Source: a virus. From it: DNA of 43,038 nucleotides. The stretch is from IMG/VR virus record IMGVR_UViG_3300028920_000129, positions 1 to 43,038 of that record. One strand, given 5' to 3'. Below the pieces are notes generated by a model, which was given only the letters and a program-made list of their open reading frames with translations, was not told where the DNA came from and ran no database searches. This document shows, in pieces, positions 5,551-34,867 of the stretch (positions are counted from its first letter, which is position 1; each line of letters begins with the position of its first letter). The translations under genes were made by a program, and so were the position numbers.

Positions 5551-6059
5551 TTGTCACCTTCCTTTATTTTACCAAGATTAGATAAATAATAAATCATTAT
5601 GTTCCTATCATTTTCAGGAATTACTTTTTTTCCTTCCCTATAATCTTGTTTTAATCCAATACTAAATACAACCGAACCATGCCTTGGACCATAGCCATAT
5701 TCACAATCGACTCCTTGACACGTCCATCTGTCATAATTTTTACATCCATAATATCCTTCGAATAAACTTAAATAATTATTCCCCTTTCCTCCTGCTGCGA
5801 TAGCATTTATTGCTTTATGGAAAGTAGTGTAAGTCTCGCCCTTTCCATAATATTTTTCATATCCATCCACATAAATCATAGTTTCCGCTTTCTTAATTAT
5901 TTCACTATCAAGATTATTGTTTTCTACATATATCAGTTTTTTTAGCTCATTTATCTCATCAAGAAGATTATTTTTAGCAGAACTAAACTCCTCCTCTAAT
6001 TTTTCTAATTTCTTAATTTTATTATTTTTTTCATTAATTAGTTTAAATAAGTTTTTCAT
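5547..6059 (-). CDS. Coiled-coil protein, 170 residues
   Basis: Residues 5-55 are a Lys/Glu/Leu coiled coil. Residues 75-130 are Gly/Tyr/Cys-rich (GYYGCKNYDRW, CQGVDCEYGYG), with three Cys that might pair or bind metal. It ends in IKEGDK with the shared junction. I do not recognise it. Confidence 0.6.
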   Translation of the reverse strand: MKNLFKLINEKNNKIKKLEKLEEEFSSAKNNLLDEINELKKLIYVENNNLDSEIIKKAETMIYVDGYEKYYGKGETYTTFHKAINAIAAGGKGNNYLSLFEGYYGCKNYDRWTCQGVDCEYGYGPRHGSVVFSIGLKQDYREGKKVIPENDRNIMIYYLSNLGKIKEGDK

Positions 6060-6241
6060 TTGTCACCTTCCTTTACGAAAATAGTTTCATATGATACTGG
6101 TATATTTTTTTGAATATAACCATTTTCAATCATAAGTTTATTTTTCTTATGTTTATAAGAACACACATTGTAGGTTATAAAGCAAATAGTAAATGCAATC
6201 ATTATTATAAGCCCTAATATAGCTTTTTCTTCTGTATTCAT
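6056..6241 (-). CDS. Single-span membrane protein (61 residues)
   Basis: A hydrophobic segment at about 8-26 (ILGLIIMIAFTICFITY) is followed by a basic region (KHKKNK), so the C-terminus is likely cytoplasmic. Start and stop both use the GAAGGTGACAAATGA junction. Function unknown. Confidence 0.6.
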   Translation of the reverse strand: MNTEEKAILGLIIMIAFTICFITYNVCSYKHKKNKLMIENGYIQKNIPVSYETIFVKEGDK

Positions 6242-6384
6242 TTGTCACCTTCCTTTTGTTTAAATGCCTGCTCTACAATAATATCAAGTACATCATAAAT
6301 TTTTCTACGTTCACGATCAGCAATCTTGTCAAGCAGTTCCTTAGTACTTTTTAAAATATGTACTGTTGTAAATTTTTCATCCAT
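6238..6384 (-). CDS. Ribbon-helix-helix-like small protein
   Basis: A 48-residue chain with one strand-like segment (FTTVHILKS) followed by two helices (TKELLDKIADRERR, YDVLDIIVEQAFKQ). The size and order fit the Arc/CopG ribbon-helix-helix fold, which binds DNA as a dimer. The fit is from pattern only. It is the second gene after the 6.6-kb promoter, a sensible place for an early regulator. ATG at 6384 follows GGAGTAAACT. Confidence 0.5.
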   Translation of the reverse strand: MDEKFTTVHILKSTKELLDKIADRERRKIYDVLDIIVEQAFKQKEGDK

Positions 6385-6397
6385 AGTTTACTCCTTC

Positions 6398-6586
6398 TTA
6401 ATTAACTATAATATCTGGATTGTTTTTTAAAATAACAATATTATTACTACCACAAAAAGGACAATATTCAGGAAGTTCTCCTAAATTGTTATATACAACA
6501 TTATATTCCATACTACAATTTTTACATTTCATATCTTGTGGATTTTGGTTCTTTTTGCCATATCTAACAATTATTCTATTTTCCAT
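6398..6586 (-). CDS. Zinc-ribbon mini-protein
   Basis: Two pairs, CKNC and CPFC, about 20 residues apart form a rubredoxin-like zinc ribbon within 62 residues. ATG at 6586 lies 6 bases after AAGGAG; an upstream TTG at 6592 would sit directly against the ribosome site and is rejected. It is the first gene after the strong promoter at 6618-6646. Confidence 0.65.
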   Translation of the reverse strand: MENRIIVRYGKKNQNPQDMKCKNCSMEYNVVYNNLGELPEYCPFCGSNNIVILKNNPDIIVN

Positions 6587-6617
6587 TGTCAACTCCTTCT
6601 TAATTACTTACATTAAT

Positions 6618-6646
6618 AGTATACTACATTTATTATACTTTGTCAA
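6618..6646 (-). promoter_or_regulatory. Strong sigma70-type early promoter
   Basis: Minus-strand TTGACA (6646-6641), 17-base spacer, TATACT (6623-6618). A T8A6 tract just upstream resembles an UP element. Transcription should start near 6611 and drive the early operon toward position 1. Confidence 0.85.
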
Positions 6647-6879
6647 GCCTTTTTTAAAAAAAATGCAAATAAAATAAAAAAAGTGATAACAGTCAAAAAC
6701 GGCTTCTAAGGCTCTTCTAAACAATAAAAGCAGAATATATACCTTTTCCGCTATAACTCGTCTCTACGTGGCTATAAACACCACTCACGGGGCTGTCAGA
6801 GGCAAGAAAGAAGGGAGCCAGTAACCAGCTGACTCCCGGAGACAAATTGAAAGGGGGAATATGTGTGAAGATAATTGAA
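6647..6879 (-). other. Non-coding gap between lysis and early genes
   Basis: About 230 bases without a supportable gene separate the end of the lysozyme gene from the early promoter. It holds a hairpin at 6814-6838 (GGGAG and CAG arms, 7-base loop) followed by TTCTTTCTT, an imperfect terminator. Further on are a direct repeat (TTAGAAGAGCC/TTAGAAGCC) and the AT tract upstream of the promoter. It most likely ends the late transcript and separates it from the early one. Confidence 0.6.
6814..6838 (-). terminator. Possible late-operon terminator
   Basis: Arms GGGAG..CAG and CTG..CTCCC enclose a 7-base loop with one mismatch. On the minus strand it is followed by a pyrimidine run broken by two C. 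Its position 42 bases after the lysozyme stop supports a terminator; the weak U-run lowers confidence. Confidence 0.4.
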
Positions 6880-7314
6880 TTACTTTTTTATTTCGTATAA
6901 ATCTTTTCTGAATTGCTCTGCCATAGTCTGTGCTCTTTTTCCTACCTGAACAGCCCATTCACTATCCAACATTTCATATGCAGCTACCGTCCAGTCTTTT
7001 CTTTCGATTGCTTCGATCATCTTTTTAAACTTTTTCAACCCTGCAAATCCAATATTAAAACACAATTCTATTATAACACATTTACGTGTATCGGATAATT
7101 CACTATACCAGTTAAGATCCCGGCAGCTTTTTTCACATTCCTGTAGATCATTATCAAGCAAATAAAATGCTTCATCTTTTGTTATTCCATTATCATCAAT
7201 GTTTCTACCAATACCAATAGTTAATTTACCAGCTGGACATTTATAAGGTTTTAGTCTTAATCCTTCGTGGAGTTCAATCTGTTTTTTGAGAAGTGAATTA
7301 TATATTTGTTTCAT
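6880..7314 (-). CDS. Endolysin, GH24 T4-type lysozyme
   Basis: Cleaves the MurNAc-GlcNAc bonds of peptidoglycan at lysis. The N-terminal HEGLRLKPYKCPAGKLTIGIG motif carries the GH24 catalytic Glu (17) and Thr (32). The position of T4 Asp20 is Cys26, a substitution found in many GH24 enzymes. The later LSDTRKCVIIELCFNIGF and DSEWAVQVGKRA are family motifs. At 144 residues it is near the usual length. ATG at 7314 follows AAAAGGAGAAGC; a start 33 bases upstream lacks a site. No signal sequence is visible, so a holin is needed for export. Confidence 0.9.
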   Translation of the reverse strand: MKQIYNSLLKKQIELHEGLRLKPYKCPAGKLTIGIGRNIDDNGITKDEAFYLLDNDLQECEKSCRDLNWYSELSDTRKCVIIELCFNIGFAGLKKFKKMIEAIERKDWTVAAYEMLDSEWAVQVGKRAQTMAEQFRKDLYEIKK

Positions 7315-7343
7315 GCTTCTCCTTTTCCAAAAAAAGCTAAAAA

Positions 7344-7697
7344 TCATTTAACAGCATTCTCTATTAATTTAAATATTATATACACACCGATAACACCCAG
7401 AGTTCCTTTACAGATACGGTTCTCCCATTTCAGCTTGACAATCTTATTTTCCTGCTGTTCAAATATATCTGTCAAGTTATTACACTGCTCTGTCTTGTCC
7501 TCTGCTATACTATCAAGCATCCAAATTTGGTTACTCATTTCAGTTATCATTACCATAAGATTAGGATATTTCAGTAACCGTTTTTTAGCTTCTAACTCTT
7601 GCCCATCCGGTACGTATATCTGCCCACTATTTAAAAGACTTGTCAATATCAGCGTCACTAATATCAGTCGCATTATCAACCGTTTTAAGTTTTTCAT
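7344..7697 (-). CDS. Lysis accessory protein, possible spanin partner
   Basis: The start lies inside the preceding coiled-coil gene in another frame, a 71-base overlap of the Rz/Rz1 type. It has an N-terminal hydrophobic segment (LILVTLILTSLLNSG), a central helical region with QEL..KK and EQQENKIVKLKWE, and a C-terminal membrane segment (GVIGVYIIFKLI). There is no lipobox Cys, so it is not a classical outer-membrane spanin. Two membrane anchors flanking a helix would suit a spanin-like or envelope-spanning role, but this is inference. Confidence 0.55.
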   Translation of the reverse strand: MKNLKRLIMRLILVTLILTSLLNSGQIYVPDGQELEAKKRLLKYPNLMVMITEMSNQIWMLDSIAEDKTEQCNNLTDIFEQQENKIVKLKWENRICKGTLGVIGVYIIFKLIENAVK

Positions 7698-7890
7698 GTA
7701 ATGTATTTATCCTCTCACTCCCTTTCGCAATTTCCTTTTCCATTTTCTTGATCTTCTTTTCCAGATTGAAATTCTCCTGCTTGTACATCTCTATCAAGTC
7801 CGGATCGTCTTTGTGTTGTTTCCGTTTCCAAATCTGGAAACCTATCCAGGCTATTAAGCCAGTCAATAAACCTGCTATAAAGCCTTTCAT
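7627..7890 (-). CDS. Rz-like inner-membrane spanin candidate
   Basis: A membrane segment at 4-20 (FIAGLLTGLIAWIGFQIW) is followed by a Lys/Glu coiled coil (residues 35-75), the layout of an inner-membrane spanin. These join with an outer-membrane partner to fuse membranes after the wall is cut. It overlaps the holin-like gene by ATGA and hosts the start of the next gene. The call rests on topology and position, not on conserved residues. Confidence 0.55.
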   Translation of the reverse strand: MKGFIAGLLTGLIAWIGFQIWKRKQHKDDPDLIEMYKQENFNLEKKIKKMEKEIAKGSERINTLHEKLKTVDNATDISDADIDKSFK

Positions 7891-8075
7891 TTCTTTGCGT
7901 CTGCGTATCCTTGTATGCCAACATAGGCAGCCGTTATAGTTCCGGCAAAGGTTATAATATTACCCATGTATGTAATGTCCTTTTTAAGAACCACAGTGAC
8001 AATAAACCCAAAAACTACAAACAAGTTCCATGCTGCCACGAACCACAATTTCCTACTCTTTAATTTTTTATTCAT
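7887..8075 (-). CDS. Holin-like two-span membrane protein
   Basis: Sixty-two residues with two hydrophobic segments (WFVAAWNLFVVFGFIVTVVL and IITFAGTITAAYVGIQGY), a basic N-terminus (MNKKLKSRK) and a charged C-terminus, typical of class II/III holins. It sits three genes upstream of the lysozyme. It probably forms membrane holes that release the endolysin. Confidence 0.65.
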   Translation of the reverse strand: MNKKLKSRKLWFVAAWNLFVVFGFIVTVVLKKDITYMGNIITFAGTITAAYVGIQGYADAKK

Positions 8076-8266
8076 TTCTTACTCCTTAACATTAAATATA
8101 ATAATACTGCTTGTAAAAAGAATATCCCAAACTGCGATAAGCGTACTAACCATTTCCCAACGTTATCCGGTTGCTTCTGTAAACTCTCAATCTTATAGCT
8201 TATACCCTCAAGTTCACCTTTAATCCATAACCACAATTCACGTACTGTTTTTGGCTCACCGTTCAT
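8072..8266 (-). CDS. Small membrane protein, XhlA-like shape
   Basis: A charged amphipathic N-terminal half (KTVRELWLWIKGELEGISYKI) is followed by one C-terminal membrane segment (FGIFFLQAVLLYLML) and a basic tail. This layout resembles XhlA-type holin partners. It overlaps the holin-like gene by ATGA. A role in lysis is inferred from position. Confidence 0.55.
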   Translation of the reverse strand: MNGEPKTVRELWLWIKGELEGISYKIESLQKQPDNVGKWLVRLSQFGIFFLQAVLLYLMLRSKK

Positions 8267-8270
8267 AGCT

Positions 8271-8474
8271 TCATCCTTTAGTAATTTTTATTTTATCTGT
8301 CTCTACCTTAATTTCATTGTCTATTGTCAGGTTAAGATTATCAAAATCCTGTTGACGTTCACTTTTTATAAGTAATCCATATTCACTTTTAATAAAATCC
8401 ATAACCTTTGTTTCAATTTCCTGCTCACCTATTGTATTTATAATTGCATCCGGTATATCAAATGTTTTTATCAT
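8271..8474 (-). CDS. 67-residue protein between fibre and lysis genes
   Basis: Short charged protein with no membrane segment (KTFDIPDAIINTI, then IKSEYGLLIKSERQQ). ATG at 8474 follows GAGGATAAT. Function unknown; it may be a small tail or fibre-associated product given its place after the fibre gene. Confidence 0.55.
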   Translation of the reverse strand: MIKTFDIPDAIINTIGEQEIETKVMDFIKSEYGLLIKSERQQDFDNLNLTIDNEIKVETDKIKITKG

Positions 8475-8475
8475 A

Positions 8476-9255
8476 TTATCCTCGCTTTATAAATGCCCAG
8501 TTTTTTTGACTACCGCTTAATAACTGCTTAGCAGCTCCACCGCCTATATTTATATATATTCCAAAATCTATAAAGTCAGTAGTGAGTAAGTATTGTCTAT
8601 CACTTAAATACCAACCGCAATTATTCCCTGTTGGGCCCGCCGCAAATGTGCTATTTTGTGCTATATTAGCACCTGCGTTTTTCCGTATTCTTAAAAAAAA
8701 ATTAGTTTGAAATGTTAAAGCACCCATTTGAGCACTACAATACATAGTATAATAATCATCAAACTTCGGAGTAAATCTATAAGTTGCTGTATCCCATTCC
8801 CCAAGCCTATCCCAATTCTCTGCATTATATTGTATAACAGTCCATACGGCATTCGGTATATTTTGGTTACCATTCCTATAACACCTTATTTCTGTATACC
8901 AGAAATTTGTACCTAATACTTTCCAATCACTTACACCGTCACTTTTTAATCTTATCCACCAATATTTTTCTTCCATTAACGGATCAAGTATACTGCCATT
9001 CATTGTATCTGTTCCTACCGGGGCTATAGTTACATCAGCATTGGAAATATTTACAAACTCTAGTATTTTATCAGCACAATCAACAGCAGCAGGAAGTGTT
9101 ACAGTGAAATTACCGTTACAATAATATGTTTTTATTTCAGCATTTGCAGGTATAGTTTTAGCTCCTGTTAATGTCTCACTAGTAAACCAATCTTTTCGTT
9201 GTATCTGTTTAAAAGCATTTTTAAAATCAGTCTGGTCATAACCCTGTATGTTCAT
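8476..9255 (-). CDS. Tail fibre / receptor-binding protein, C1q-like
   Basis: Residues 1-115 carry strand-rich repeats (GNFTVTLPAAVDCADKILEF, NADVTIAPVGTDTMNG) usual in phage fibres. Residues 123-259 match the C1q/TNF jelly-roll pattern (CYRNGNQNIPN, NAENWDRLGEWD, DDYYTMYCSAQM, LRIRKNG). Such trimeric heads usually bind the host surface. It follows the hub gene with a 4-base overlap, the normal place for a short fibre. Target unknown. Confidence 0.75.
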   Translation of the reverse strand: MNIQGYDQTDFKNAFKQIQRKDWFTSETLTGAKTIPANAEIKTYYCNGNFTVTLPAAVDCADKILEFVNISNADVTIAPVGTDTMNGSILDPLMEEKYWWIRLKSDGVSDWKVLGTNFWYTEIRCYRNGNQNIPNAVWTVIQYNAENWDRLGEWDTATYRFTPKFDDYYTMYCSAQMGALTFQTNFFLRIRKNAGANIAQNSTFAAGPTGNNCGWYLSDRQYLLTTDFIDFGIYINIGGGAAKQLLSGSQKNWAFIKRG

Positions 9256-27434: not shown

Positions 27435-28355
27435 CTATGTTAAATTACAAAATCTGCACGCATAGCAATCTACAACATCACGTACAATATCGCTGCCGCC
27501 AATATTAAAAATATATTTAGCATCATCTGACATATTTTCACTTTCAATAAGTTCGAAACTCCAAATACCATTACTGTCCGGTGTATCTGTTTCTAAACTA
27601 TTAACTATCCTGACTTCACTTTTATAACAAACAGAATTTCTATTTAATTTAACCGTAACCGGAGTTGTATCTACATCCCCGTCAACACCTTTAGTCTTAC
27701 CCCATACAACACAAGTATCTTCTATCGGATCATAAAGAGGATCACCACTCCACCTTACAGTATCATATACAAGAAAATATCCTATCGAACCAGCTTGAAA
27801 AACACTGCCGGCATTATAACCAGCTCCAATAAAAAAGTTATCCATGTTCTGATCACGTGTTCCAGTACTTGCATCAGTCAATATCCTTATATTATCTATC
27901 CATACAGAACTAACACCGGTTGTAACATCAACAGCAACTTTAAAAACATAACTTGTTCCGGAAACAGGAAGCCATGCAGCTGATTGTACATTTATAATCG
28001 CCGCACCTGCTGAACTATTAACTTCTAATCCTATATTACCAGTACCCGTAAGGTGTCGTAATTGTATAAGGTTTTTTGAAGAAGCGGTGTTTTCCGAACC
28101 GCCAAAAAATACTTTTGTTGCTCCCGGTATCCCCGTGTAAGTAGGTATAATCTCAAACTGTATTGAAAATGTTTGTATCATCCCATCAAAATTTTTAGTA
28201 CCATGATACCGGATATATTCCCCTGCTCCAGCCATAACAAGTCTATTAGCTGTAATTGTGGCAGTGTTTGATATTGGAACCATTACACCATCGTTTCGAG
28301 TAAAACTTAAATCCTCAGTAGCAAATTCTGTACAACATAATATTTCTGCTGCCAT
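27435..28355 (-). CDS. LamG-like virion protein
   Basis: 306 residues. The middle part (IQTFSIQFEIIPTYTG, TKVFFGG, YVFKVAVDVTTGVSSVWIDN, MDNFFIGAGYNAGSVFQAGS) follows the concanavalin/LamG jelly-roll pattern. The C-terminus has CYACRFC. It sits between portal and protease, overlapping the portal stop by one base. It could be a head-surface glycan-binding protein; placement here is uncommon. Confidence 0.6.
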   Translation of the reverse strand: MAAEILCCTEFATEDLSFTRNDGVMVPISNTATITANRLVMAGAGEYIRYHGTKNFDGMIQTFSIQFEIIPTYTGIPGATKVFFGGSENTASSKNLIQLRHLTGTGNIGLEVNSSAGAAIINVQSAAWLPVSGTSYVFKVAVDVTTGVSSVWIDNIRILTDASTGTRDQNMDNFFIGAGYNAGSVFQAGSIGYFLVYDTVRWSGDPLYDPIEDTCVVWGKTKGVDGDVDTTPVTVKLNRNSVCYKSEVRIVNSLETDTPDSNGIWSFELIESENMSDDAKYIFNIGGSDIVRDVVDCYACRFCNLT

Positions 28356-30601
28356 TACTTCAACCCTACATCTTTTCTGCGTTTTTCAAAATCAACAAAT
28401 TCATCTTTCTTTTTAATTTCAGCATATTCTTTTTTACTTACCGTTTCAAACTCACCTTCCATATAAATACTCTTTTGAATATTCACACATCGACACCGAT
28501 CCCCACCTAAACAATGATTAGTGTTAGGTGCTACAAAGTCAGGATCACCTATATCATGCCTCACTCCGTCCCTCGGTAAGCAGTCCTGACAAGCATGGCT
28601 ATCGAGTATACAACTATACACTTCATATTCAATCTCATTCTTCTGATCATATGCCTGAAGTTCACGTCCTATTCCATAAGCCTTATTGATAGACGCATTA
28701 GCAATATTATTAATTTCTCTAACACCGACAACCTTTATAGCCGATTCAATCTCTGCTATGAGTTCGTGTTGAGTCATTTTAGTAGCGTCAATATGATAAA
28801 AGGAATATATAGCACTATTAGATAGACTATTAGCTATACGAACCGCATCTCCATGAGCTTTACTTTTAAGGTACGCTACCGCATCCGCTTCACTTTCAAA
28901 AGTCTGTACAGTTTCAACTATAGGCTTTTTTGCAGCAAGTTGTTTTTCAGCGTGCTTCTTTTGATAGGCGATGTCCTCTTTAACATGAGATTTACCTTTT
29001 TTCAATACCTTCATCATTTCATCAAATAACCTGTCAGTCATTTTACCGATAAAAGGTACTTGTATATCCTCCGGTTGTTTCTTGACTACCTGTTTCGATA
29101 CCGCCTCAACCTGTTGCTTGCGTACCCGCTTAACCTGTGATTCAAACTTCTCTACACCATCATCTAACGTCATTTCTATTTTATCAAAATCAGCTGCCTT
29201 GTTTTCCAGTGTAGTTAATTTCCTACTACGTTTATATACTTTTAGTTTCATCCCATTAGGATAATCAGTCAATTCTTCTTCTTCTTCTTTTATTTTACTT
29301 TTTTCTATACTCTTTTGAATATTATTCTGTATTTGCTTTTTCTGTTCCTGCTCTTCCTCATACTCTTCCTCACTCTTTTCCGGTAATCCTAACAAATCCC
29401 TGGTATGATTCTCAATCTTTAAATCAGCCGATATTATACCGGCATTCTTAACACCCGTTAAACTCTCAATCCATTTATTTACTTTAAGATTAATATTACC
29501 AAACTTTAATTTTGGATATTCTTTAACATTCCAGTTATAATCAACCATTTGCGGGATAACATACTTATTATTCATATCAGCAACATAACCGGCTACGGCG
29601 TGAAGTGACATTATAAACATCTCTTCAAACGATTCACCTAACGCCCTGCTGCCTGTTGCTGTAGTACCCAAACTAATAAATTGTGCAAGTACATTTTTGG
29701 CTATACCTTCATCGTGATGCTGTATAGATTTCATAAGCCCGATATTAGTACCTTGTTTCTCAAACATATTCATTTCGTATCCATGCGGTAGTAACACCCA
29801 TGACTTTGTACGTGAATGAAGGTTTTCAAGGATAGTTTCAATTCGTGCCGTGTCCGCAGGATTAGTTGTCTCAGGTTCAGTTACAACAGGTATACCAGAC
29901 GCCCATCTGTCATGCCCTATAGCATCGATTTCATAAAGCATGTCTTTAAGTTTCCAATGCTTATACGCAGATCGTAATACAGACGTTCCCTCAAAATTAC
30001 TACCGTCCTGATCGTTAACAAACAAGACAAGCCTGTCAACAGGAATATCATAGTATTGTGTTTTGCCTTCGTTATTCTGTGCAAACTGTTGTATACCACC
30101 TAACCCACCATGTTCATCCCTGATCCATTTGTGCAGTGTCTTTTGCAGCCTCGGTGCTAGTTTACGGTACTGTATTAATCCATCTTTAAACTCAAAGACT
30201 TTTTCAAACGTAGAAAACCCCATCCATAAAAAAGAAAGTGCTTGCCTAAGGTAATCATCCCATGTAATTGACATACCATTAAAAAGATTGTTTTGTACTT
30301 TCTCTGCTATTTCAATATCTTCCGGTTTATCACTTGCAGGATCAATATACCATTTAGCTTGACGTATAGGTAGTGTGATAGAAAGGAGAGTGGCTTTGAT
30401 CTGAGCATCAGACCGTTTCATTTTGTCGTATTCAGCTACACGACCGGATAAAGAGCTTAATTCAGTAAGATACTCCTCACCTGTAATCATTCCGTTATAT
30501 ATCTGGACACCGGTGGTGCCTATCTCTTTTGTAGGTATGGATTTTTGTGGTTTATTTGTGGCTAACTTGAAAGCATTTTGAAGTGACGTCAATAATCCCA
30601 A
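28355..30601 (-). CDS. Portal protein fused to MuF-like head protein
   Basis: Residues about 20-430 match the Mu gp29-like DUF935 portal family (GRVAEYDKMKRSDAQIKA, FLWMGFSTFEKVFE, HGYEMNMFEKQGTNIG, LGTTATGSRALGESFEEMF). Residues about 590-715 match the MuF/SPP1 gp7 head morphogenesis domain (CILDSHACQDCLPRDG, NTNHCLGGDRCRCVN). The linker is helical. The two are separate genes in Mu. The portal is the DNA channel; MuF-like proteins are minor head proteins. Start is a TTG at 30601 with a weak site, inside the transcript of the promoter at 30682-30710. Confidence 0.9.
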   Translation of the reverse strand: MGLLTSLQNAFKLATNKPQKSIPTKEIGTTGVQIYNGMITGEEYLTELSSLSGRVAEYDKMKRSDAQIKATLLSITLPIRQAKWYIDPASDKPEDIEIAEKVQNNLFNGMSITWDDYLRQALSFLWMGFSTFEKVFEFKDGLIQYRKLAPRLQKTLHKWIRDEHGGLGGIQQFAQNNEGKTQYYDIPVDRLVLFVNDQDGSNFEGTSVLRSAYKHWKLKDMLYEIDAIGHDRWASGIPVVTEPETTNPADTARIETILENLHSRTKSWVLLPHGYEMNMFEKQGTNIGLMKSIQHHDEGIAKNVLAQFISLGTTATGSRALGESFEEMFIMSLHAVAGYVADMNNKYVIPQMVDYNWNVKEYPKLKFGNINLKVNKWIESLTGVKNAGIISADLKIENHTRDLLGLPEKSEEEYEEEQEQKKQIQNNIQKSIEKSKIKEEEEELTDYPNGMKLKVYKRSRKLTTLENKAADFDKIEMTLDDGVEKFESQVKRVRKQQVEAVSKQVVKKQPEDIQVPFIGKMTDRLFDEMMKVLKKGKSHVKEDIAYQKKHAEKQLAAKKPIVETVQTFESEADAVAYLKSKAHGDAVRIANSLSNSAIYSFYHIDATKMTQHELIAEIESAIKVVGVREINNIANASINKAYGIGRELQAYDQKNEIEYEVYSCILDSHACQDCLPRDGVRHDIGDPDFVAPNTNHCLGGDRCRCVNIQKSIYMEGEFETVSKKEYAEIKKKDEFVDFEKRRKDVGLK

Positions 30602-30713: not shown

Positions 30714-30905
30714 CTATATCTGAAAAAACTCTTCCAGTTCTTTAATCTTCCGCTTCAACATAACATAAGTTAACGCCGGATCAAGGTTACCCCACATAGT
30801 GACTTGCCCTTTATCGGCTGCATGGACTAAATAAAAATCCTTAATACCTACCTTGTTTAACGCTTCACTAATCTTTAACTGTTCTTTTGTCGCTTGATTT
30901 TTCAT
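30714..30905 (-). CDS. 63-residue protein before portal promoter
   Basis: Short protein with an N-terminal helix (TKEQLKISEALNKVGI), a middle strand (DFYLVHAADKGQVTMWG) and a C-terminal helix (LKRKIKELEEFF). Start at 30905 follows AGGAGGATAAT. It is a compact alpha-beta mini-protein of unknown function. Confidence 0.6.
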   Translation of the reverse strand: MKNQATKEQLKISEALNKVGIKDFYLVHAADKGQVTMWGNLDPALTYVMLKRKIKELEEFFQI

Positions 30906-30906
30906 A

Positions 30907-31158
30907 TTATCCTCCTATTATTTTTCTTGAAATAAACAAACCTATCAAACACCCTATTGTTGCACCTATTGCATAACAAAGACGTGTCCATATATTACCA
31001 TCCGCTATACGCTTCACATGAAAAGAAGATGTCATACTAATACTAAAAGCTGTAAATATTAATCCTATATAAAAACTTTTACTAATAAAATAAGTATGAC
31101 ATGATGTTAAACATGCTCCTACAATAGCAGTTAATATTAAAATTTTATTATTTTTCAT
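30907..31158 (-). CDS. Small multi-span membrane protein
   Basis: 83 residues with about three hydrophobic segments (ILILTAIVGACLTSC, YIGLIFTAFSISMT, LCYAIGATIGCLIGLFI). ATG at 31158 overlaps the upstream stop. Function unknown. Confidence 0.6.
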   Translation of the reverse strand: MKNNKILILTAIVGACLTSCHTYFISKSFYIGLIFTAFSISMTSSFHVKRIADGNIWTRLCYAIGATIGCLIGLFISRKIIGG

Positions 31159-31523
31159 TTTTTCTTCTTTGCTTTCTTTTTAACTTTCTTTTTTTTCTTA
31201 TTAAACTCATTATTTAATTTATTCAAATCATCAACTTTATAAAACGTTAAGTTATTCTGCAATACCGTATATGATACAAAATGAGAATGTGCTAGTATCA
31301 TACCTTTCTTATTCTTTATATCTTCATCCTTATATGTATCAATATCAAGTAAAGCATGTTGAAAAGAAGGATTCTCTATACCTATACCAATAGCATCCTT
31401 ACCGGTAAATACAGCACTATGCCAATTAATATACTTACCTTTTGATTTACCACATTCACACTTGCGTAACTTATACGCAAGTAAAAACATACTTTTACAA
31501 TTCTTACAATATACTGCTTTCAT
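31155..31523 (-). CDS. Zinc-ribbon protein with Lys tail
   Basis: CKNC (6-9) and CEC (28-30) form a likely zinc site. The body includes GKDAIGIGIENPSFQHAL and AHSHFVSYTVLQ. The C-terminal 16 residues are nearly all Lys, Val and Ala, which suggests nucleic acid binding. Starts at the stop of the neighbouring gene. Function unknown. Confidence 0.6.
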   Translation of the reverse strand: MKAVYCKNCKSMFLLAYKLRKCECGKSKGKYINWHSAVFTGKDAIGIGIENPSFQHALLDIDTYKDEDIKNKKGMILAHSHFVSYTVLQNNLTFYKVDDLNKLNNEFNKKKKKVKKKAKKKK

Positions 31524-31777
31524 TAATAGCCTCCCATACTCGGTTTATATGATTTATTTTTTTGTCTTATTTTCTCTGCTTTACCATGTAATTCTTTTTC
31601 CACTTTTATTGGTGAAAAATCCTCACAACCAATACTAAATCTATCTCTACTAAATAATCCACCTGTTGAAATAAACTTACCACAATAATTACAATATGGT
31701 GAGCTATTACCATCCAGCACATCCCATGACGTTTGATAATTCCAACCTAAATGTTTACAATTACTACAATTTTTCAT
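31523..31777 (-). CDS. Cys-rich protein, 84 residues
   Basis: CSNC at 4-7, then CNYCG at 29-33 and a single Cys in GCEDF: a zinc ribbon like those of other phage mini-proteins. Start at 31777 uses the local GGAGTTAAAGAATGA junction. Function unknown. Confidence 0.6.
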   Translation of the reverse strand: MKNCSNCKHLGWNYQTSWDVLDGNSSPYCNYCGKFISTGGLFSRDRFSIGCEDFSPIKVEKELHGKAEKIRQKNKSYKPSMGGY

Positions 31778-31953
31778 TCTTTAACTCCTAAAGCTTTTTT
31801 AAAAATTTTTATTGTTTTTTCATCATTTTCAATCTCAATTTTATACTGTTGTACTTTTCTTAAAAAATCATCTAAACCTTTTTTTTGGTTTTTGTTTTTA
31901 CTTTCATAGTATTCTAATTTTTCCTTTAACACCATTCTTATAATTTTATTCAT
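31774..31953 (-). CDS. Coiled-coil mini-protein (59 residues)
   Basis: Lys/Glu-rich heptad helix (LKEKLEYYESKNKNQKKG, DDFLRKVQQYKIEIEN). It ends in LGVKE; these codons contain GGAG and overlap the next ATG. The preceding gene also ends in LGVKE. Function unknown. Confidence 0.55.
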   Translation of the reverse strand: MNKIIRMVLKEKLEYYESKNKNQKKGLDDFLRKVQQYKIEIENDEKTIKIFKKALGVKE

Positions 31954-32207
31954 TCTTTAACTCCTAATGTTTTAGCTTTATCATAACATTTCTTTTCTTC
32001 ACACATAAAAGTATTTAATACTTCAAATTTAAATTTATCCAAATTGACCATAATGCTTTTACAATTTCCAGCCATTTCTTCTAAAGAAATATGATTACCC
32101 TTGTTTTTTTCTTTCCCTGCTATTTTTATAAATAAACAATCAAGATCATCTATTCTACTTAATGCATCATTCACTTCGTCACATACTTGTTTAAATTCCT
32201 TTTTCAT
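31950..32207 (-). CDS. Helical 85-residue protein
   Basis: Helical, charged (EFKQVCDEVNDALSRIDD, LDKFKFEVLNTFMCEEKK) with four Cys. Start at 32207 follows AAGGAGTTAAAGA and its end repeats the same site. Function unknown. Confidence 0.6.
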   Translation of the reverse strand: MKKEFKQVCDEVNDALSRIDDLDCLFIKIAGKEKNKGNHISLEEMAGNCKSIMVNLDKFKFEVLNTFMCEEKKCYDKAKTLGVKE

Positions 32208-32218
32208 TCTTTAACTCC

Positions 32219-32377
32219 TTAATTATTTTTAGTTAGTAATAAATATTCTTCACTATTTATCATTCTTATAAATCCACATATAGGACATTCAACACACAGC
32301 CTCCCATATGCTAGAAATATATCTAACCTCTTACATTTTACCAAATCAAGTTTACATATACATTCAAATTTTACCAT
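32219..32377 (-). CDS. Cys-rich mini-protein (52 residues)
   Basis: ATG at 32377 follows TAAGGAGTAAGATT. The chain has CIC (6-8), Cys15, then CVECPIC (28-34), enough for a zinc ribbon. Ends in a hydrophobic/polar segment (EEYLLLTKNN). Function unknown. Confidence 0.55.
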   Translation of the reverse strand: MVKFECICKLDLVKCKRLDIFLAYGRLCVECPICGFIRMINSEEYLLLTKNN

Positions 32378-32392
32378 AATCTTACTCCTTAA

Positions 32393-32584
32393 TTACAAAA
32401 TATTATGATACCCATCATCGTCTAACATTATATAGTCACCTTCATCCTTCCATTCACCACACCAGTTAGTCTTTGGCACTATCCTGTTTTTCATCACACC
32501 AGCCGGATACCGTCTGCAAGTATACGTATCTTCGTTTTCATCATGCAGTACGTATTTACAGTTTCCGCAACATTCATTTACCAT
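32393..32584 (-). CDS. Phage Cys-rich mini-protein (CGNCKY type)
   Basis: ECCGNCKYVLHDENEDTYTC, RRYPAG and NWCGEWKDEG form a pattern common in short phage and prophage proteins, with four or five Cys likely binding zinc. It overlaps the terminase nuclease stop. Function unknown in all cases I know. Confidence 0.7.
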   Translation of the reverse strand: MVNECCGNCKYVLHDENEDTYTCRRYPAGVMKNRIVPKTNWCGEWKDEGDYIMLDDDGYHNIL

Positions 32585-33312
32585 TGTTTCCCCCTCAGTC
32601 CAGCAGTAATACCCGGACTAGCTTTCTGTTCCTTCACTCCCCTTCTAACTCCATACATCTTGTAGGCTCTCTCAGCAAACCACAAAGCCATAACACAATC
32701 AGTTGTCACACATCCGGGATGTTGGCTTACTTCCCTTTCAAACTGACACCACGGACATCTACACCCTGCTTGATGATCCGGTAAATAGAACCGCCAGTTA
32801 TTCTGTTCAAACTGTACATCCAATGAAGGTAACCCTATATCACTATCGCTCTTTTGCTTACCAGTGGTAAAAGCCTTTAACGGAATAGTTCCATAACCTT
32901 TTTCACGCATCCACTCAAGTATTGAATTCTGATATGCGTTATTTTCGACATGCACCACAATAGGCTTGTATATCTCATTCACTTCCTTAATCTGATCCGC
33001 TGTCTGTGGACTAGTCCATTCTCCTGTACGTATATCAATCGGGTACTTATACCCATCGTTATTAACAGCTATAGTTATTATAACATTACCTTTTCGTTTC
33101 TCACCGGACAAATCCACTCCTGTAAAAGTGTACTGCCACATCGGAGGTGATTCACCTTTACGAACACATTTAGTGAAGTTAGGAAAAGTAAGTTCATCCG
33201 CTGTTATAGCTTTCTGTCTAAATCCCCTGTCAAACGCACGTGTGCCTATCTCCTGACACCGTTGTATTAACTTGTCTTTAGACCAGAAGGAGCATAACTC
33301 AATTATTTTCAT
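32578..33312 (-). CDS. terL: Large terminase, nuclease half
   Basis: 244 residues. Residues 9-35 (FWSKDKLIQRCQEIGTRAF, DRGFRQ) match the linker that follows the ATPase domain in one-chain terminases. The RNase H-like nuclease has Asp67 (FTGVDLSG), Glu123 (HVENNAYQ) and Asp205 (TTDCVMALWF), the expected metal-binding acidic residues. It cuts concatemeric DNA during packaging. The matching ATPase is a separate gene at 33817-34581 and two small genes lie between. ATG overlaps the upstream stop (AAATGA). Confidence 0.85.
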   Translation of the reverse strand: MKIIELCSFWSKDKLIQRCQEIGTRAFDRGFRQKAITADELTFPNFTKCVRKGESPPMWQYTFTGVDLSGEKRKGNVIITIAVNNDGYKYPIDIRTGEWTSPQTADQIKEVNEIYKPIVVHVENNAYQNSILEWMREKGYGTIPLKAFTTGKQKSDSDIGLPSLDVQFEQNNWRFYLPDHQAGCRCPWCQFEREVSQHPGCVTTDCVMALWFAERAYKMYGVRRGVKEQKASPGITAGLRGKQW

Positions 33313-33539
33313 TTATTTAATTCAATAATTTTACATCTTAAATTACTATACACCAATTTTAAACTATTAGTTGAAAATATCTCGATATTACTCCCACCGT
33401 ACATGATAATATCAAATTGATACCCAAGAGGTTCAACAGTTCGTATAATTTCTGTCAAACCTATTATCTTTTCTAGTATAATCTCATATGTTTTAAATTC
33501 TGTTTCAATTGTTATAAGTGTTACTTTTTCGCTTTTCAT
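33309..33539 (-). CDS. Intercalated small gene 2 within split terminase
   Basis: 76 residues, mostly strands and helices (KVTLITIETEFKTYEIIL, FDIIMYGGSNIEIF). It ends KIIELNK; the nuclease gene begins MKIIELC, so the junction repeats the same codons. ATG follows GAGGAGATAATAG. Not a homing nuclease or intein by motif. Function unknown. Confidence 0.65.
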   Translation of the reverse strand: MKSEKVTLITIETEFKTYEIILEKIIGLTEIIRTVEPLGYQFDIIMYGGSNIEIFSTNSLKLVYSNLRCKIIELNK

Positions 33540-33820
33540 TCTATTATCTCCTCCTCTTTGTGTGCCTGTGCTATAGTAGCCTTATTGATAATATCCTCAA
33601 GCACCTCCTCCTTACCTGTTTTCATCATAGCTTCACCAAGTTTAATCATCGCTTCACCATCCACCACAATAGGTGGTTTACTATGAAATTTCTTATACCA
33701 ATTCAATTCTTCTTTTGTTGCTTGCTTTTTAAAATATCTATCTATTATCCTTGACTCTTCAATAGTCACCATTCCTGTTGTAGTCATATTTAGTTTACAT
33801 GCACATTCATATCCATTCAT
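33536..33820 (-). CDS. Intercalated small gene 1 within split terminase
   Basis: 94 residues, helical. A motif VTIEESRIIDRYFKKQATKEELNWYKK resembles small helical bundles; the C-terminus is HKEEEIIE. Starts in the GAGGAGGTAATAGAATGA junction at the end of the ATPase gene. It could be a subunit bridging the two halves of the terminase. No conserved domain recognised. Confidence 0.65.
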   Translation of the reverse strand: MNGYECACKLNMTTTGMVTIEESRIIDRYFKKQATKEELNWYKKFHSKPPIVVDGEAMIKLGEAMMKTGKEEVLEDIINKATIAQAHKEEEIIE

Positions 33821-34581
33821 TCTATTACCTCCTCCTCTATATATTCAAAGTCCTCACTAATCCTCTGTATAAGCACGCTAAATCTCTTTGACTCTATAAT
33901 CGTCTTAGTCAAGTCATCCTCATGCCATCGGGTACAAATGTAATACACAAAGCCATCATCTACAAGCCTCGGCATCCAAGCCACTTTATATTGCTGCCGT
34001 ATATTATCCCTAATAAGTTGACTATTTATACTCTTTTCATCTACTGGATCATCAAATATAATAACGTCTGCTCTGCCACCTACACCAGTTGACATTATCC
34101 CTCTGGCTTCAATAGTCGGATCAATAGCATGCCCTTTACGTTTAAGATATATTCTATGGTTAGTCCATTCCTGATCTATATCTCTCTCTATACCGGGGAA
34201 TACTTGTTTATATTCTTTATCGAATTGTATATATGTTCGAATAGCCTTTACTCTATCAGTAGCATATGTATCACTTGAATTGACTATCTTAACACGTAAT
34301 GCCGGATTAGGACCTATTATCCAAAGTGTTTCCGCTATGGCTATCTGTATGCTCTTCCCGTGTCCCCACGGTGCCAGTATAGCACAATGTTTGCCTATGT
34401 TCTTACAGTGCTGTATATGCTTTATCCATGATTTATGTATATTATTTTGAATTATAGGCAATCCAGTCCTGTCATCTTTTATAACATATTCACGGAAAAC
34501 GTTTGGATCGTTTCTGGATAGTTCTATTTGCTGTTTGCGTTCAATTGCCGTTTTTATCAGTTTTTGTTTTATTGTTGTCAT
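33817..34581 (-). CDS. terL: Large terminase, ATPase half
   Basis: 254 residues. Walker A is APWGHGKS (70-77), Walker B is VIIFDDP (173-179), and the coupling motif is YICTRWHEDD (about 214-223). This is the motor that drives DNA into the prohead. It stops at the normal ATPase/nuclease boundary (SEDFEYIEEEVIE), so it lacks the nuclease, which is encoded at 32578-33312. Together the halves total about 498 residues, a usual full length. It overlaps the small-subunit-like gene by 41 bases. Confidence 0.9.
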   Translation of the reverse strand: MTTIKQKLIKTAIERKQQIELSRNDPNVFREYVIKDDRTGLPIIQNNIHKSWIKHIQHCKNIGKHCAILAPWGHGKSIQIAIAETLWIIGPNPALRVKIVNSSDTYATDRVKAIRTYIQFDKEYKQVFPGIERDIDQEWTNHRIYLKRKGHAIDPTIEARGIMSTGVGGRADVIIFDDPVDEKSINSQLIRDNIRQQYKVAWMPRLVDDGFVYYICTRWHEDDLTKTIIESKRFSVLIQRISEDFEYIEEEVIE

Positions 34582-34867
34582 TTAATAGTTCTAATAATTC
34601 ATCCATTGTGTATTTTGTTATTAGTTCGTCAAGCAATTCTTTTGGTGACTTAGTTAGTGTTATATTCATATCTTTTGGCATAACCTTTGCTATATAGCTT
34701 AATACCGTATCTGGTTTGCACTTCATTATAATATTCTCAATGCCTACTTCTTTTTGTATAGCTACAATTATCTTTTCATGCAGCTCTTTCATATCACGTG
34801 TTATCTTGTTTACAGCACCTTTTGGCTTACCATTTGGATTACCTGACTCGCCTTTCTTATATCTCAT
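34541..34867 (-). CDS. Small terminase-like protein, DUF5681 start
   Basis: 108 residues. The N-terminus RYKKGESGNPNGKPKGAVN is the DUF5681 motif seen in proteins encoded before large terminases. A helical middle (TRDMKELHEKIIVAIQKEVG) and a C-terminal helix (PKELLDELITKYTMDELLELL) follow. It may recognise the packaging site. First gene after the promoter at 34916-34944. Confidence 0.75.
   Translation of the reverse strand: MRYKKGESGNPNGKPKGAVNKITRDMKELHEKIIVAIQKEVGIENIIMKCKPDTVLSYIAKVMPKDMNITLTKSPKELLDELITKYTMDELLELLNDNNKTKTDKNGN

Follow-up and report, generated by a model that had tools for sequence, protein, structure and literature searches.

Packaging models assume that the large terminase (TerL) is a single chain linking an engine (the ATPase), a transmission (the lid) and a nuclease domain that grips the DNA. 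In the T4 model the core serves as the engine, NsubII as the transmission and the C domain as the wheel, and when T4 gp17 was cut at the linker, the ATPase and nuclease activities were kept while translocation was abolished (PMC3012670). In the structure of the D6E TerL the core is followed by the lid and then by a 12-residue linker into the nuclease (PMC5727402). Genes for TerL in pieces are known already through introns, for example in the Jug phages (PMC12363816) and in the Bastillevirinae (PMC11878797), in both of which terL is interrupted by an intron. What appears to be new is an intron-free TerL made from two genes, since no intron-free two-chain TerL was found described in the open-access literature, subscription journals being outside the search. 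SEA-PHAGES annotation lists hold separate names for the TerL ATPase domain and the TerL nuclease domain, and isolated precedents may therefore exist.

Herein we analyse a contig of 43,038 bases from IMG/VR, which belongs to an uncultured phage and comes from a metagenome assembly; the window below means this whole stretch of DNA. Like the one-chain TerLs of T4 gp17, T7 gp19, PhiV-1 and D6E, its terminase keeps the order of core, lid and nuclease together with the catalytic residues, and like them it adjoins TerS and the portal. Unlike them, its chain is cut between core and lid, at about the place of T4 gp17 residue 310.

Gene order at the terminase locus

On the minus strand the genes follow one another as a TerS-like gene, the TerL N half, an ORF of 94 aa, an ORF of 76 aa and the TerL C half, and the last four lie where the initial annotation had placed them. 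The features needed for what follows are these:

34541..34867, minus strand: probable small terminase (TerS-like, 108 aa) with a DUF5681 match (PF18932, E 1.4e-7), directly upstream of TerL and overlapping the start of the N half
33817..34581, minus strand: TerL N half, ATPase core (ASCE / NsubI), 254 aa, assigned by phrog_38, AlphaFold2 and Foldseek; Walker A at P71-S77, Walker B at D177 and D178, coupling motif at T217-D223
33816..33838, minus strand: 23-nt direct repeat, copy 1, containing the start codon of the 94-aa gene together with its ribosome-binding site
33817..33820, minus strand: ATGA stop-start overlap from the N half to the 94-aa gene
33536..33820, minus strand: 94-aa ORF between the TerL halves, with a strong Shine-Dalgarno site, matching no known family
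33535..33557, minus strand: 23-nt direct repeat, copy 2, at the start of the 76-aa gene
33536..33539, minus strand: ATGA stop-start overlap from the 94-aa to the 76-aa gene
33309..33539, minus strand: 76-aa ORF between the TerL halves, with a strong Shine-Dalgarno site, matching no known family
33309..33312, minus strand: ATGA stop-start overlap from the 76-aa gene to the C half
32578..33312, minus strand: TerL C half, 244 aa, with lid helix 12-31, linker and RNase H-like nuclease (D67, E123, D205)
28355..30601, minus strand: portal protein of the Mu/P23-45 type with a Mu-F-like C-terminal part (PF06074, E 2.6e-48), downstream of the packaging genes

The rest of the head module appears intact, with portal, protease and major capsid protein. 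The contig ends are classed as linear and show no terminal repeat, so that the 43,038-base contig may be incomplete. The stretch separating the portal gene from the TerL C half holds about eight small ORFs (52-122 aa, 30714-32584), an unusual number for this place. One N half and one C half are present in the contig and no second TerL was found in its 43,038 bases, so that the intact copy which the initial annotation had named as counting against a split did not appear there.

The initial annotation had also assigned ribosome sites and overlaps to all four genes. The overlaps hold throughout, but clear Shine-Dalgarno sites are seen only at the 94- and 76-aa genes (GAGGAGGAG), and none is recognisable for the N half or the C half. 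The ATG of the C half is preceded by an in-frame TAA codon and overlaps the stop codon of the 76-aa gene as ATGA. Because the C half has no Shine-Dalgarno site of its own, it is likely, from its sequence, to be translated by coupled re-initiation at this ATGA.

The two halves and the position of the cut

In a TerL profile search the N half matched positions 256-473 of phrog_38 (E 2e-34) and the C half positions 492-706 (E 1.4e-14). These being neighbouring stretches of one profile, the halves together cover adjacent parts of one TerL. When 60 relatives of the N half were aligned, P71, H74 and K76 of Walker A, D177 and D178 of Walker B, and T217, W219 and D223 of the coupling motif proved to be invariant and G75 of Walker A at least nearly so; in an alignment of 63 relatives of the C half the nuclease triad D67, E123 and D205 is invariant. 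The AlphaFold2 model of the N half has a mean pLDDT of 94, up to the last residues, and by Foldseek it resembles the solved TerL ATPases of PhiV-1 (8dgc), T4 gp17, T7 gp19, HK97 and P74-26; the model of the C half (pLDDT 83) resembles the TerL nuclease domains of P22, RB49, G20c and T4. The motifs first read from the sequence, namely Walker A, Walker B and coupling motif in one gene and the acidic triad in the other, are thus borne out by the alignments and, for both halves, by the structure matches. Neither half has internal stops and, judged from alignments and models, neither carries signs of decay, the catalytic residues being all intact.

Two hallmarks of TerL are therefore present, in the N half an ATPase of the ASCE kind bearing both Walker motifs and the coupling motif, and in the C half an RNase H-like nuclease with a D/E/D triad, but they do not share a single polypeptide: they lie on two ORFs with stops and two genes between them. 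The ATPase and nuclease likewise lie on separate ORFs in the related loci L258, L259, L260, L263 and L264, which are described below.

As to the position of the cut, a long helix spanning residues 12-31 opens the model of the C half; a linker comes next, and the first RNase H strand begins only at residue 61. When the joined halves were aligned by profile with T4 gp17, the alignment as a whole was weak (E 8e-4, probability 24%), but it pairs Walker A, Walker B and the coupling motif, as well as D401, E458 and D542, and sets the cut at about T4 gp17 residue 310. The lid of T4, NsubII, we take to consist of residues 314-360 plus the N-terminal 58. A lid after the coupling motif, as usual in TerL, is recognised in the opening helix (12-31) of the C half, by the same weak T4 gp17 alignment in which the catalytic residues are paired. 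Because the C half opens with a helix and a linker, and the cut lies near T4 residue 310 with the lid beginning from 314, both alignment and model place the cut between the ATPase core and the lid ('transmission') subdomain, the lid remaining with the nuclease. This differs from the first reading, in which the ATPase gene stopped at the normal domain boundary and the nuclease gene began at the usual linker: the cut lies upstream of the ATPase/nuclease hinge, and the C half carries the lid helix before the linker.

Like the T4 gp17 split in the laboratory, the terminase of the window consists of two polypeptides with a catalytic site in each, those of the window being known from sequence and models. 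Unlike it, where the cut lay between NsubII and the nuclease, the natural cut lies between NsubI and NsubII and leaves lid and nuclease in one chain. Moreover, two TerL families, PHROG 4758 and PHROG 5573, have profiles of 243 and 250 residues, which is the length of half a TerL, and the N half aligns to positions 4-224 of the 243 in phrog_4758. These families may represent additional split TerLs, intron-split genes or fragments.

Relatives and the genes between the halves

Relatives were found by a scan of viral contigs with a four-sequence alignment and by two follow-up scans. Single-protein scans of the viral contigs with the N half, the portal, the 94-aa protein and the major capsid protein gave no relative, nor did a scan of genome contigs with the N half, and a scan with the C half alone gave only one-chain TerLs at 24-33% identity. 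The relatives of the clade are:

L258/L259 (contigs 3300031999_000178 and 3300031952_000041): split, four genes between the halves
L263 (contig 3300036766_000655): split, four genes between the halves
L264 (contig 3300035701_000423): split, four genes between the halves
L260 (contig 3300010391_001709): split, no gene between the halves, ATGA overlap
L175, L255, L256, L257 and L271: one-chain TerL, 511-533 aa

L258 and L259 come from two samples and two metagenome assemblies and are 99.7% identical over 10.1 kb. The splits of the clade occur at the same point as in the window. The window shares with its clade relatives roughly 34-43% identity in the N half and 27-38% in the C half. A TerL match was present at 273 of the loci retrieved, several of which may lie on one contig; at 253 of them TerL lies in one ORF, and among the 273 an intact two-ORF TerL cut between core and lid is found only in the clade of the window, plus the doubtful L189. 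In L189 (636-2106), a distant TerL, two frames overlap by 26 nt at the same core-lid point, which is either a real split or a frameshift. Two other candidates, L131 and L213, were rejected as further splits, since they continue in several frames and are broken or erroneous. L261 (7881-8684, contig 3300021090_000121), which is of the L260 type, has the N half, and the C half was not found within its 21-kb fragment. In L129 (5818-7230), a prophage of a Denitrovibrio MAG, one in-frame stop interrupts TerL near the beginning of the ATPase domain, the frame being intact elsewhere. All twelve GenBank phages examined for their similarity to the N half have a one-chain TerL, and a search for prophages with the clade N profile, run without a positive control, gave no clade member in 398 genomes of one phylum-level group and 395 of a second.

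In a tree of 19 TerLs the split state requires at least two changes. The nearest relatives of the window by tree path are one-chain, which implies either more than one gain of the split or one loss: it arose twice independently, or it arose once and was undone by a re-fusion that gave rise to the one-chain subclade. Grouping all split forms in a single clade is marginally rejected (p-AU 0.043). The starts of the C halves look alike (MKI..IE in the window, MKINTIEIPLW in L264), and this likeness favours a shared split for the lineages of the window and L264. Among L258, L263 and L264 the pairwise identity is 72-81% for the N halves, 70-80% for the C halves and 29-61% for the intervening genes. 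For the same three loci dN/dS (Nei-Gojobori, Jukes-Cantor) is about 0.10-0.11 in the N half, where dS is near saturation, 0.18-0.27 in the C half, and 0.3-0.6 in two intervening genes. Judged from these rates, where they are measurable, namely in the L258/L263/L264 lineage, both halves are under purifying selection and maintained as separate genes.

The 94- and 76-aa proteins have no convincing family match in Pfam, PHROGs, NCBIfam or PADLOC and occur in no clade relative, split phages included; for the 94-aa protein no relative was found in viral contigs or GenBank phages. The four-gene order that was to be sought in related contigs is thus found only in part: the split recurs at the same site, and the two small genes do not. 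The four genes between the halves of L258 and L263 (about 129, 135, 128 and 150 aa) are partly conserved in L264, have no family match and are absent near one-chain relatives. These families of proteins of about 130 aa (L258:2209-3911, L263:6637-8266, L264:4371-6137) keep a largely conserved order, and some of them resemble distant paralogues of one another.

The two copies of the 23-nt direct repeat that bounds the 94-aa gene match at 22 of 23 positions, and none of 200 dinucleotide shuffles reached 22 (the best reached 20). A nearly identical ribosome-binding site and start (AAAGGAAGGTGACAAATGA) is found at four minus-strand small-gene starts (3260, 5550, 6059 and 6241), and other families of start-associated repeats are seen at 31777/31953/32207, 33539/33820 and 42551/42779. 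In concept such repeats are akin to the start-associated sequences known in cluster K mycobacteriophages. The opening 36 nt of the 94-aa gene (33785-33820) resemble the start of a 52-aa gene (32342-32377) at 25 of 36 positions, borderline against shuffles, and the N-termini compare as MNGYECACKL and MVKFECICKL. The base composition of the intervening DNA is that of the other small genes of the window. Because the repeats sit at the starts of the 94- and 76-aa genes and of other small genes, the sequence suggests that the small genes were gained as cassettes, and the 94-aa gene resembles an inserted one. The 76-aa gene ends, and the C half begins, with a similar 'KIIEL'; this likeness was considered as an insertion scar and set aside because it is too short to carry weight. 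Since L258, L263 and L264 begin their C halves in a way resembling the MKI..IE of the window, the likeness may be older.

It could be that in a true multi-component motor the halves are bridged structurally by the 94- and 76-aa proteins, as their genes lie between the halves and are tightly overlapped, and as the largely conserved order of the four-gene set in L258, L263 and L264 indicates that genes in this place can persist. We regard this as unlikely, however, because neither protein has a relative in any other split phage, the 94-aa protein has none in the phage and viral collections, L260 has no such genes, and the repeats point to cassette gain. The gap holds none, two or four different genes, and therefore none of them is a general requirement of the split motor. 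More probably the 94- and 76-aa genes are passengers of the late operon, inserted at or after the split, rather than parts of the motor. Of the proposed multi-subunit packaging motor, the two-gene TerL is thus retained, whereas the two small proteins as its parts are not.

Splicing, decay and the case for a two-chain motor

Another explanation is that the intervening stretch is removed at the RNA level, by an unrecognised self-splicing intron or by ribosome bypassing, giving a one-chain TerL. Known split terL genes are mostly due to group I introns, as in the Jug phages (PMC12363816) and the Bastillevirinae (PMC11878797), which like the window have two ORFs with sequence between them, and the N and C halves of the window happen to be in frame with each other, 34581 and 33312 differing by a multiple of 3. 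Still, at the gathering score Rfam detected no family in the window, L175, L176, L177, L260, L263 or L264, and no intron appeared in 32560-34600 at E up to 5, while in Twort, the positive control, three group I introns were detected at 64-101 bits. The catalytic RNA core that lies between the exons of a group I intron-split gene was accordingly not seen here, and the 94- and 76-aa ORFs match no homing endonuclease family. Unlike the intron-split terL genes, in which splicing restores one chain, the window has no detected intron or endonuclease gene, and its relatives carry no genes or other genes between the halves: L260 has no intervening stretch but just an ATGA overlap, and the gap of L258, L263 and L264 consists of four coding genes that are largely conserved. 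As the four genes of the window are moreover joined by 4-nt overlaps, we consider removal at the RNA level quite improbable.

An intein is likewise not indicated. Intein-containing TerLs such as L274 have, as the window does, extra sequence inside terL, but they form one open frame that is spliced at the protein level, whereas in the window each TerL half has a start and a stop of its own and neither carries a Hint domain. In L274 itself (5769-8492) a single ORF of 907 aa encodes TerL, and an intein with Hint splicing and LAGLIDADG domains sits within the ATPase part. The early impression that the locus has no splice-like structure is in line with the Rfam search with its Twort control and by the lack of a Hint domain.

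A decaying terL, with TerL supplied by a helper, a host prophage or an unseen gene, would draw on the unproven completeness of the contig (no terminal repeat, linear ends), but with all active-site residues kept, no internal stops, purifying selection on both halves in relatives, and a complete-looking head module with protease and major capsid protein, it is very unlikely. An assembly or sequencing error, which had been named as able to overturn the split and which a metagenome assembly might suggest, is hardly credible, for the split recurs in contigs assembled independently, among them one phage that was assembled twice from different samples, and the intervening DNA has the composition of other small genes and strong Shine-Dalgarno sites.

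Altogether a genuine two-gene TerL is supported by the recurrence of the split in distant relatives with 0, 2 or 4 genes between the halves, and by the lack of a detected intron together with the purifying selection on the halves where this is measurable. We hold it very probable that this is a real two-chain TerL from one late operon, whose halves dock non-covalently. TerL would be made as two polypeptides from that operon, chain 1 being the ATPase core ('engine') and chain 2 the lid ('transmission') with the RNase H-like nuclease and DNA-gripping domain ('wheel'). Each would be translated from its own gene, the two lying near each other, with stop-start coupling the probable route for the C half; the halves would then dock across the core-lid cleft, restoring the usual TerL fold at the portal, where a ring of rebuilt TerL would pump and cut DNA. 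Here we infer the physical association of the halves, their stoichiometry, the packaging activity and the coupled translation. Against such a motor counts the finding that translocation was abolished in T4 gp17 split at the linker, so that function is not to be expected by default (PMC3012670). A further step, which we put forward only as a doubtful possibility, is a naturally heteromeric motor. Its core and lid-nuclease would be separate subunits, each with a stoichiometry of its own and perhaps exchangeable, and some of the intervening proteins, of which the L258/L263/L264 lineage has four, would be further components of the motor or portal.

If the two-chain TerL is real, annotation pipelines that expect one TerL ORF can miss or misread such phages, and split TerLs would offer ready-made separable subunits for reconstituting and re-pairing the packaging motor. 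The natural cut keeps transmission and wheel together and breaks only the link between engine and transmission. Since it spares the lid-nuclease link, while the linker cut in T4 was fatal to translocation, the prediction follows that the lid-nuclease link must be covalent. A phage clade living with a cut one step earlier in the chain would show which covalent link is needed and which can be dispensed with.
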